A stretch of DNA of 64,000 nt, from contig NZ_RKLQ01000001.1 in the NCBI RefSeq assembly GCF_019599405.1, positions 248,001-312,000 of the forward strand, written 5' to 3'. Every line of letters starts with the position of its first letter. Position 1 is the stretch's first letter. Positions 19,251 to 30,905 of the stretch are shown piece by piece. The notes beneath the pieces are model-generated. The model saw only the letters and a program-made list of their open reading frames with translations. It made no database searches and was not told where the DNA came from. Origin of the DNA: Haloarcula salinisoli (GTDB lineage Archaea > Halobacteriota > Halobacteria > Halobacteriales > Haloarculaceae). A program made the position numbers and the translations under genes.

Positions 19251-19652
19251 ATGCACCAGTTGACGACTGTCGAGGCGGTCCACGAGGACGGCTCGTACCT
19301 GTTCACCGCCGAGGACCCCTACGGCGACCCCGAAGAGGTCATCCTGGTGCCCTGTAAGGACGGTGTCGCGGCGTGGGTCAACCGCTGTACCCACGAGAAC
19401 CAGCCGTTCGATACCGGACAGGGCGTCCCGATGCGCGACGGCGAGATTATCTGCCCCCGCCACGGCTCGCTGTTCGACGCCTGCGACGGCGACTGTGACA
19501 ACGGCGAGGCCGCCGGGACGACGCTGCCAGATATCGATATCGCGGAGCGTCATGGGACGATTTTTCTCATCGACGACGACTACGAGTTCATGCACGAGGG
19601 AGGTATCGACGACGACGGGGGACCGAGTTCGACGTCGCATCTGCAGTTGTAG
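19251..19652 (+). CDS. Rieske [2Fe-2S] protein
   Basis: The 133-aa soluble Rieske-type ferredoxin has both cluster-binding motifs: Cys46 and His48 in CTHENQPF, and Cys68 and His71 in CPRHGSLFD. The spacing is that of ferredoxin/oxygenase-type Rieske proteins, without a membrane anchor, so it is probably a cytoplasmic electron carrier or a subunit of an oxygenase whose partner is not adjacent. The C-terminus ends DDDGGPSSTSHLQL. About 370 bp downstream, beyond hairpin repeats, the sequence of this 3' end recurs in diverged form. Confidence 0.88.
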   Translation: MHQLTTVEAVHEDGSYLFTAEDPYGDPEEVILVPCKDGVAAWVNRCTHENQPFDTGQGVPMRDGEIICPRHGSLFDACDGDCDNGEAAGTTLPDIDIAERHGTIFLIDDDYEFMHEGGIDDDGGPSSTSHLQL

Positions 19653-20018
19653 GGTCCGCACGAACGGAGTGAGTGCGGTTCACTGACCACGAGGCGAAGC
19701 CGAGTGGTCAGCCTTTTTGGCCACCGAATGACTCGCTGGCTCACGGCGGGGCCGTTCGCCTCCCACGGTTCTTACTCTGCTCGAACCGCGCATTGCTCGT
19801 CTTTCGAGCCTTCGTTCGCTGCGCTCACGAAGACCACGTTTTTCGAGTCGAGCGGGACCGGCGGTCCCGCTGTCTGCGCGCGGGTCCATGACCCGCTCGC
19901 ACGGTCCGAGGGAGCTTTGCTCCCTCGCTAACCTGCGAACGGGCGCGACGCGCCGTGGGCAGAGAGTGGTGACTGTAGCGAGCACCGTGAGCGAAGTCAC
20001 CCGACGACGAAAAAGGTG
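19653..20018. repeat. Hairpin mosaic between the Rieske gene and a copy of its tail
   Basis: This gap is a string of small inverted repeats. CCGCAC/GTGCGG with loop GAACGGAGTGA is at 19656-19678, followed by TGACCAC/GTGGTCA. Three-nucleotide-loop hairpins such as GCGGGTC-CAT-GACCCGC and GAGGGAGC-TTT-GCTCCCTC follow, and then a GGTGACT/AGTCACC pair. The 114 nt at 19835-19948 are identical, in inverted orientation, to 29028-29141. The string ends in the 16-nt sequence GACGACGAAAAAGGTG (20003-20018), which also borders the mosaic next to gatB. Open frames here are by-products of the repeats. Confidence 0.8.
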
Positions 20019-20063
20019 GACGACGATGACGGGCCGAGTTCGACCTCGTATCTACATCTGTAG
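20019..20063 (+). pseudogene. Second, diverged copy of the Rieske gene 3' end
   Basis: In the frame of the intact gene this reads DDDDGPSSTSYLHL and stop, against DDDGGPSSTSHLQL and stop at the real end of the Rieske gene. Several of the codon differences are silent. It has no start and is separated from the gene by about 370 bp of hairpin repeats. It is either the original gene end displaced by an insertion or a duplication made by one. Confidence 0.7.
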
Positions 20064-20317
20064 GGCCATAGCCCGATTCTGCGGGCGTTTTGCAACGGTC
20101 TCAGTCTGAGCTACACGCCGCTGTATAATTGTGCACAAATACAGCTAGAACTTCCAGTTCCTGTCCCAATCGTGCAGCAAAAACAGTGGAGAAAAAGACT
20201 TTAGGTGACACACGTCCAAGTAACTGGTAGAAAGTGGCCGGGACCTAAACTCGTGACTTGTCGACACGAGTCGACGAGGCCGAGCGCAGGCGACCGGTCC
20301 GAACAAAGGTACAGCAA
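20064..20317. other. Intergenic region with nothing recognised
   Basis: This stretch of about 250 bp lies between the duplicated Rieske tail and the small protein at 20318. It is AT-richer than its surroundings around 20125-20215. A run GAAAAAGACTTTAGG (about 20191-20205) could include a TATA element for the downstream gene. No coding sequence, RNA gene or strong inverted repeat is apparent. Confidence 0.4.
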
Positions 20318-28805: not shown

Positions 28806-28844
28806 TTATTCGTCCAGTTCTTCGCGAAGCAGTCCGTTGGCCTG
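28806..28844 (-). pseudogene. Second, diverged copy of the gatB 3' end
   Basis: On the minus strand this reads QANGLLREELDE and TAA, against EVNGLLREELDE and TAG at the true end of gatB (29311). Within the shared NGLLREELDE every nucleotide difference is silent. It is preceded in frame by the codons ATG AAA AAG GTG, part of the 16-nt junction at 28845-28860. The intact gene and this copy are separated by about 470 bp of hairpin repeats. Confidence 0.75.
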
Positions 28845-29310
28845 CACCTTTTTCATCGTCCTCAGAAATCGAAGATTTCTGATGGGCTGCACGAGAGCTT
28901 CGCTCTCGTGAACGTCGCCCTTCCTCGCGAGCCTTCGGCTCGCTGCGGGGAGAGCGTGGCGGCTACGCCGCCACGTCGTTCGGTTGCGGGCTGACAGCCC
29001 GCAACCGGCTCTCTGCTCACGGGCGCATCGCGCCCGTTCGCAGGTTAGCGAGGGAGCAAAGCTCCCTCGGACCGTGCGAGCGGGTCATGGACCCGCGCGC
29101 AGACAGCGGGACCGCCGGTCCCGCTCGACTCGAAAAACGTGCGCGAAAAAGGCTCGCCCTCGTGATCCGAGAGAGCAAAGCTCTCTCGTCATCTGCTCAC
29201 GGGCGGCGAAGCCGCCCGTTCGCAGGCTCGTGGGACTCGCCGAGTCCCACGCTCATCACGAAAGGCGCGAAGCGCCTTTCGGACGACTCCGCTCGGGCGA
29301 GTACAGTACC
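28845..29310. repeat. Hairpin mosaic between gatB and a copy of its tail
   Basis: This is a string of at least ten short inverted repeats, mostly with 3-nt loops: AGAAATC-GAA-GATTTCT, CGAGAGC-TTC-GCTCTCG, GTGGCGGC-TAC-GCCGCCAC, GAGGGAGC-AAA-GCTCCCTC, GCGGGTC-ATG-GACCCGC, GGGCGGC-GAA-GCCGCCC, GTGGGACTCG/CGAGTCCCAC and GAAAGGCGC-GAA-GCGCCTTTC, plus GGTTGCGGGCT/AGCCCGCAACC. Positions 29028-29141 are identical and inverted relative to 19835-19948. The end nearest the tail copy is GACGATGAAAAAGGTG on the minus strand (28845-28860). There are no genes. Confidence 0.8.
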
Positions 29311-30825
29311 CTACTCGTCCAGTTCCTCGCGCAGCAGTCCGTTGACCTCGCCGGGGTCCGCTGAGCCGCCGGTCTTCTGCATCACCTGCCCGACCAGGAA
29401 GTTCAGGGCGTTGTCCTCGCCGTCGTAGTAGTCGGAGACGGTGTCGGGGTTCTCCGCGATGGCTTCCTCGACGGCGCCCTGGACCGCGTCGCCGGAAGTC
29501 TTGCCCAGCCCCTCGCGGTCGACAATAGTGTCGGGGTCCTCGCCCTCGTCGAGCATCTCCCTGAGGACGGTCTCGTGGGCGTTCTTGGCCGTAATCTCGT
29601 CCTCGTCGACGAGTTCCACGAGCCGGGTCACCTCCTCGAAGCGGTCGTCGATATCGGTGATAGACATATCGCGGTAGTTCAGCTCGCCCAGCAGATTGTC
29701 GGCGACCCAGGTCGCGGCGAGGTCGGCGTCGAACGCTTCAGCGACGCTCTCGAAGAAGTCGGCGACCTGTTTGGTGCTGGTGAGTTTCGAGGCGGCCTCG
29801 TCGCTCAGCCCGTACTCGGCGACGAACCGCTCGCGGCGGGCGTCCGGGAGCTCCGGAATCGCGATTTCGTCTTTCCAGCCCGACACCTGCAACGGCGGGA
29901 TGTCGGCCTCGCGGAAGTACCGATAGTCCTTCTCCTCCTCCTTCGAGCGCATCGAGACGGTGTTGCCGTGAGTCTCGTTGAAGTGGCGGGTCTCCTGTTC
30001 GACCGCGCGGCCCGACTGGACGAGCTTGCGCTGGCGGGACTCCTCGAAGGCCAGGGCCTTCTCGGCGCCCTTGTGACTGGAGATGTTCTTGACCTCCGTG
30101 CGGTTCGCTTCTTCGAGCACCTCGTCGTCGATGTGCCCGTCCTCGCCCACCGCCTCGGCGTCGACCATCGAGAGGTTCGCGTCGATGCGGAGGCTCCCGT
30201 CGCGAGTCGCGTCGAAGACGCCCAGATACTCCAGTACCTCCTCCAGCTTCTCGAGGAAGGCCCGAACCTCACCGGGCGCGCGGAAGTCCGGCTCCGTGAC
30301 GATCTCCATCAGCGGCGTCCCGGCGCGGTTGTAGTCGACGAGCGTGTAGTCGGCCCGCTCGATGCTGGTGGTGCGAGATTCGAGCGGTCCGCTGCCGTCC
30401 CGGACGTGCTTGATGGAGCCGGGGTCTTCCTCCAGGTGGGCCCGGCGGATGTCGACCGCACGGCGGTCACCCTCTACAGCAAACTCCAGCTCGCCGTCCG
30501 CACAGATGGGCGCGTCGTACTGCGTTATCTGGAAGTTCTTGGGCAGGTCGGGGTAGTAGTAGTTCTTCCGGTGGAAGGTGGTCTCCTCGGGGATGTCGGC
30601 GTCGATGGCCTTGCCGACCTTGACGGCGGCCTCGACCGCTCCCTCGTTGACGACCGGCAGCGCCCCTGGCAGCCCCAGACAGACCGGACAGGTGTTGGTG
30701 TTTGGCTCCTCGCTGGGCTCGGTCGAACAGCCACAGAATATCTTCGTCTCCGTCTCCAGCTGGACGTGGACCTCCAGCCCGATGACGGCCGCGAGTTCGC
30801 GGGACTCGGCGGCTTGTGCAGTCAT
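29311..30825 (-). CDS. gatB: Asp-tRNA(Asn)/Glu-tRNA(Gln) amidotransferase subunit B
   Basis: The 504-aa tRNA-binding and kinase-like subunit of the GatCAB amidotransferase activates the acylated carboxyl group and positions the tRNA. The N-terminal cradle shows IGLEVHVQL and the zinc-site cysteines in FCGCST and CPVCLGLPG, then the conserved HRKNYYYPDLPKNFQITQYD and YNRAGTPLMEIVTEPD. A C-terminal YqeY-like domain ends NGLLREELDE. The start at 30825 fits the family. GatA and GatC are not in the window. It probably works with the aspS product on Asn-tRNA formation. Beyond its 3' end lie hairpin repeats and a diverged copy of its tail. Confidence 0.93.
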   Translation of the reverse strand: MTAQAAESRELAAVIGLEVHVQLETETKIFCGCSTEPSEEPNTNTCPVCLGLPGALPVVNEGAVEAAVKVGKAIDADIPEETTFHRKNYYYPDLPKNFQITQYDAPICADGELEFAVEGDRRAVDIRRAHLEEDPGSIKHVRDGSGPLESRTTSIERADYTLVDYNRAGTPLMEIVTEPDFRAPGEVRAFLEKLEEVLEYLGVFDATRDGSLRIDANLSMVDAEAVGEDGHIDDEVLEEANRTEVKNISSHKGAEKALAFEESRQRKLVQSGRAVEQETRHFNETHGNTVSMRSKEEEKDYRYFREADIPPLQVSGWKDEIAIPELPDARRERFVAEYGLSDEAASKLTSTKQVADFFESVAEAFDADLAATWVADNLLGELNYRDMSITDIDDRFEEVTRLVELVDEDEITAKNAHETVLREMLDEGEDPDTIVDREGLGKTSGDAVQGAVEEAIAENPDTVSDYYDGEDNALNFLVGQVMQKTGGSADPGEVNGLLREELDE

Positions 30826-30905
30826 TACCCGTGGTTCGGGGCCCCCCGGCTAAAGCGTAACGACCCCTAGCTGTGGTGTTTGAATGAGTGGCTGGGATTC
30901 TTATC

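Follow-up and report, generated by a model that had tools for sequence, protein, structure and literature searches.

The window, a stretch of 64,000 nucleotides from Haloarcula salinisoli (GCF_019599405.1, contig NZ_RKLQ01000001.1, positions 248,001 to 312,000), contains a gene for a small Rieske [2Fe-2S] domain protein of 133 amino acids, the 3′ end of which is repeated 366 bp past its stop codon (Table 1). The two copies of this end, direct repeat D3, are 81% identical over 47 nt, with an ungapped score of 27.2 against at most 13.4 in shuffles. When the tail is compared with the whole window, the second copy matches at 38 of 47 positions and the runner-up site at 27 of 47. As stated in a preliminary description of this DNA, the right copy reads DDDDGPSSTSYLHL and is closed by a stop in frame, and GACGACGAAAAAGGTG precedes it. 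The hairpin mosaic that separates the two tails spans 366 bp (19653-20018; z = −4.8 for folding as single-stranded DNA). The tails differ at nine of 45 coding bases, six of the nine at third codon positions, and three amino-acid changes (G/D, H/Y and Q/H) are found in place of the two given in that description. The YLHL ending of the right copy is absent from every relative examined, which suggests that the two changes producing it most simply reflect decay in an untranslated copy.

Table 1. Features of the Rieske locus and of the second case in the window
Feature	Position	Strand	Basis
Host gene, small Rieske [2Fe-2S] domain protein, 133 aa	19251..19652	+	ORF; Pfam PF00355, E 1.7e-08
Left gene-tail copy, part of the living gene	19608..19654	+	Direct repeat D3
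Left hairpins H1 (stem about 19656-19678) and H2 (arms 19683-19695, 19699-19711), then T5 run	19655..19719	+	Inverted repeats, sequence
Extra segment, first T run to left arm of E	19720..19833		Missing in simple E copies
Left arm of E, CC-ACGTTTTTC-GAGT	19834..19848	+	Sequence
Nested second hairpin element within E	19849..19966 (end approximate)		Match to 28845-29311 mosaic; ileS element with and without insert
Inner hairpin and right arm of E, ending GAAAAAGGT (20009-20017)	19967..20017	+	Sequence
Right gene-tail copy, joined to ancestral downstream DNA; displaced or duplicated original end	20019..20065	+	D3; empty sites in G017, G022, G025
Right tail copy of second host gene	28807..28843	-	
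Second E mosaic: right arm GAAAAAGGT 28846-28854, left arm ACGTTTTTC 29132-29140	28845..29311	-	
Second host gene, ends VNGLLREELDE	29311..30849	-	ORF end duplicated
Left tail copy of second host gene, last 37 nt before the final base of the stop codon	29312-29348	-	

The core of the mosaic is an element, here called E, of the form XY-ACGTTTTTC, inner hairpin, GAAAAAGGT-Y′X′. Hairpins of other kinds lie to the left of E or nested within it. The stretch that leads from the first T run to the left arm of E is missing in simple E copies and is thus taken as a further insert, with partial matches elsewhere in the genome at C1:1376443 and C1:559598. A part of the Rieske mosaic of 132 bp (query positions 183-314), which takes in most of the nested hairpin element, recurs at 98% identity at C1:277009-277141, in a mosaic 9 kb away. 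That mosaic belongs to a second tail-mosaic-tail arrangement in the window (28807-29348), at the gene ending in VNGLLREELDE. Nesting is also seen at ileS, where an insert present in the element of genome G024 is missing from the orthologous element of G023.

E elements make up a dispersed haloarchaeal family and are short, structured and non-coding. The 107 copies examined are a sample taken with a strict pattern from genomes most of which are drafts, and orthologous insertions in different species sometimes count as separate copies. The E pattern occurs in 31 of the 32 Haloarcula genomes searched (genus as in GTDB) and, at the level of the order, in 82 of 392 genomes, mainly within the same family. 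In the window and the copies read, E is shorter than 500 bp and non-coding. Its ends form a terminal inverted repeat, XYACGTTTTTC/GAAAAAGGTY′X′, and TTTTTC thus stands on both strands, both occurrences lying within the search pattern. The outermost two bases pair in 101 and 100 of the 107 copies, respectively, and the next bases do not pair. The stems covary (98.8% of cells pair; score 0.256, against 0.081 for shuffled and at most 0.034 for slid controls), the support coming from the two outermost pairs and the inner helix, as most of the outer helix is unable to vary under a pattern that fixes nine bases at each end. Head-to-tail arrays of three to four identical E copies occur at G005:C1:56513-56933 (186-bp spacing) and G011:C1:1319201-1319776 (170-bp spacing), the unit of the former, as read, being a gene tail plus E. 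A known RNA family was rejected as the identity of E, because only a tRNA reaches the Rfam gathering score among the E loci searched. One E region searched against PLSDB plasmids gave no match, and none of the loose-pattern matches in viral contigs with flanking GC of at least 52% carries a gene-end repeat. Many of the genome-contig matches listed lie in bacteria, lack the repeat and are attributed to chance; those with GC-rich flanks serve as a negative control. No title or abstract describing the family was found in the open-access literature searched.

A direct repeat lies to the left of E and restarts 0-12 nt after GGT at 46 of the 107 copies, against one in a swapped-flank control. It is 21-235 nt long and mostly corresponds to the end of the host gene, its left copy ending within about 40 nt of the stop codon in most repeat-bearing cases, while the right junction of E holds 0-9 nt of unmatched filler. 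Repeats also flank E copies in another family of the order. The sequence preceding the Rieske copy, CCGACGACGAAAAAGGTG, is found at 27 sites in the genome (up to two mismatches, one base open) and its reversed control at one; at several of these sites, too, GAAAAAGGT is immediately followed by a repeat of the 3′ end of the preceding gene. Hosts identified by Pfam include citrate synthase, M29 and M24 peptidases, PheT, Spt5, a 4Fe-4S protein, an ABC ATPase and a class-I glutamine amidotransferase. Further hosts are putatively named as IleRS, EF-2, EngB and others. Mismatches between paired tails fall at codon positions 1, 2 and 3 in the proportion 30/30/110, or 21/19/41 when the three longest diverged pairs are subtracted from the same table, and this third-position excess indicates that both tail copies mostly diverged while coding. 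The two tails of citrate synthase in G016 are 100% identical, and there a plain duplication would fit as well as a replacement.

The direction of events is read from relatives with empty sites. In G017, G022 and G025, the Rieske gene has a single tail and no hairpins, as the preliminary description had predicted for the pre-insertion state, whereas the YLHL-type end predicted with it is present in none of them. Their downstream DNA matches the window with scores of 61.6 to 127 after the second tail and 8.6 to 10.2 after the first, so the second tail stands where the gene originally ended and the mosaic has been inserted ahead of it. The flank matches in the same way when G002, which has its own insertion at the Rieske gene, is compared with G010, and flank comparison in G010 and G024 likewise places the second ileS tail at the original position. 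The tests are weaker at citrate synthase, where G021 against G008 is in support and G016/G019 and G021/G020 point neither way. The insertion proposed earlier is thus borne out by the flanks, while the replacement of the tail that was proposed with it is plausible at the Rieske gene, whose tails (47 bp) are too short to tell foreign from native. As a separate observation, the Rieske gene of G025 (L071, G025:C13:345942-346004) is shortened by an in-frame internal deletion that retains the start and the tail and removes the iron-sulphur core.

At ileS the origin of the two tails can be told apart. The left tails of G023 and G024 are 99% identical to each other and group with those of G004 and G030, whereas both their right tails and the gene body upstream fall with G029, G003 and G008. 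Over the 240 upstream positions G023 and G024 show 22 differences, the last of them at −37, followed by only two through the left tail, so the shared foreign block begins at most 37 nt from the insertion point. The junction GGTGGCAGCC-GAGATGCGC is identical in G010, G023 and G024. Judged by these sequence affinities, the displacement is shown at ileS, the left tail and E being foreign and the right tail native. This is most simply explained if a unit of tail, E and junction entered the ileS genes of G023 and G024 by homologous recombination and left the native tail downstream. Other ileS ends vary in a different manner. At L168, L177, L179 and L185, and in the right copy at L182, the gene ends in CEADQREASEQASGD, with the usual AAAEASD readable after the stop, which looks like the insertion of a different palindromic repeat into the coding end. 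Past the ileS stop at L176 (G022), a palindromic unit that is unrelated to E (CACGAGCCCGACCAGCGGGAGGGCTCG...) is repeated in tandem.

The repeat-bearing copies have one orientation. With the strand of host genes called by codon composition (GC3-GC2), 35 of the 46 lie at same-strand gene ends and none at opposite-strand ends, the other 11 giving no strand call. Transposition of the IS1634/IS1549 type is expected to show no fixed orientation relative to the host gene, and the distribution of E departs from this; it is hard to reconcile with ordinary symmetric transposition and suggests that first placement depends on which way the gene or its transcript runs. As to function, a T5C insert terminates 95% of transcripts in Haloferax volcanii (PMC7237163). 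Together with TTTTTC on both strands of E, this precedent makes a terminator role likely, and by this analogy E is most likely a bidirectional T5C transcription terminator that settles at gene 3′ ends.

The explanation that best joins these results, and which we consider probable, is that E elements are mobile terminators lying, at repeat-bearing sites, between two versions of the host tail, the living one on the left and the former gene end on the right. The left version would finish the living gene, and the right version would remain on the original downstream DNA, outside the translated gene. Once formed, the unit of tail, E and junction would pass from one species to another by homologous recombination, with the gene body and the right tail as the regions of exchange; we are moderately confident of such spread. 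Tandem arrays may arise by unequal exchange between repeats, and E may provide its host gene with termination, by analogy with the Haloferax case. Placement at a new gene would be tied to the direction of the gene or transcript, for example through a circle or cDNA of tail plus E and one crossover. More tentatively, the elements can be regarded as mobile bidirectional terminators which carry a piece of host tail as a replacement gene end and enter by a transcript- or circle-linked route, with no usual symmetric transposase; it is possible, at the same tentative level, that such replacement ends would reach either the counterpart of their gene in another species or a new gene.

The strongest alternative, which we regard as a real possibility though on the improbable side, is that E is a non-autonomous transposon (MITE), mobilised in trans by a transposase of the IS1634/IS1549 kind that makes long variable target duplications, the two tails being a plain target-site duplication reshaped afterwards by recombination. 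The terminal inverted repeat with covarying end bases agrees with this, as do the variable length of the repeats and the near-identity of the tails at some sites such as citrate synthase in G016. IS1549 and IS1634, with direct repeats of 8-514 bp for which no mechanistic model has been proposed, provide a precedent, and the IS1634 family favours Euryarchaeota (PMC2266710). On the other hand, a transposon of this kind would account poorly for the one-sided orientation, the left border close to the stop codon and the unmatched filler at the right junction, and no larger transposase-bearing relative is found among the sampled copies, which the search pattern limits to short ones. Integration of a molecule of tail plus E, either a DNA circle or an end-joined cDNA, by a single crossover in the tail would yield gene-tail-E-tail in one orientation. 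Judging from the anatomy, this would account for the fixed orientation, the variable repeat length, the exact right end with its short filler, the left border near the stop codon and the foreign ileS tails; as a general account it is nevertheless unlikely. One ileS base at −4 suggests that the foreign block starts slightly upstream of the tail, which favours a double crossover. That the right tail is a leftover of a tandem Rieske paralogue, or a chance repeat, is most improbable: a second, distant Rieske-domain gene (37% identity) does exist elsewhere in the genome, but the two full tandem genes that the preliminary description had named as its refutation are absent from all genus genomes searched, the D3 score lies far above the shuffles, and the same arrangement at dozens of unrelated genes effectively rules both out.

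If the preferred reading of mobile terminators between two tail versions is true, housekeeping genes of haloarchaea, among them those for IleRS, citrate synthase, PheT and Spt5, would repeatedly receive new 3′ ends, and each displaced tail would be a readable fossil of a transfer and a direct handle on interspecies recombination. The repeats of E also reopen the question of long variable target duplications, left without a model for IS1549/IS1634 (PMC2266710), whose long variable direct repeats and terminal inverted repeats the E sites resemble. E differs from these insertion sequences in being short, non-coding, oriented with the host gene and placed at the stop codon, with a foreign tail at ileS, and no coding relative with a transposase occurs among the copies sampled, which the search pattern limits to short ones. 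Terminal inverted repeats, a non-coding nature, dispersal and empty sites in relatives are shared with MITEs, and a short, palindromic, modular and nested organisation with MITEs and REP/BIME mosaics, but both of these have short or no target duplications, whereas E is flanked by gene-end repeats of up to 235 nt. Some integrative elements restore the 3′ end of their target gene, so that, as proposed for E, incoming DNA brings a new gene end and the old one is displaced; the E unit, in contrast, is a few hundred bp long, lacks integrase and cargo, and has its own tail for each host gene. In archaea, casposons favour aEF-2 and tRNA genes, at their 3′ ends (PMC4046053), and E copies likewise lie at EF-2 and beside tRNA-Arg genes, although the window and the copies read have no Cas1, polymerase, or casposon-type inverted repeats or target duplications.

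The remaining copies have a different placement. No repeat accompanies 61 of the 107 copies, and 30 of these lie 0-6 nt from an opposite-strand stop codon (the next distance being 59), a position never taken by repeat-bearing copies; a single insertion story thus does not cover all copies. The orientation bias and this stop-codon class render the mechanism of E testable. The 30 copies have TTTTTC past a stop codon as haloarchaeal T5C terminators do, some of which also have hairpins (PMC7237163), whereas E carries T5C on both strands, recurs as a defined unit and shows signs of movement. E can also be an old resident terminator. On inspection, an E-like element follows the EF-2 stop codon in 22 of 26 readable genomes, where it has the look of a long-established element more than of a newly inserted one. 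Among close relatives, the EF-2 elements (L400-L429) occur with several stem versions, such as ACCTTTTTC...GAAAAACGT and GTACCTTTTTAC...GTAAAAATCTAC, which suggests a fast exchange of whole stems.
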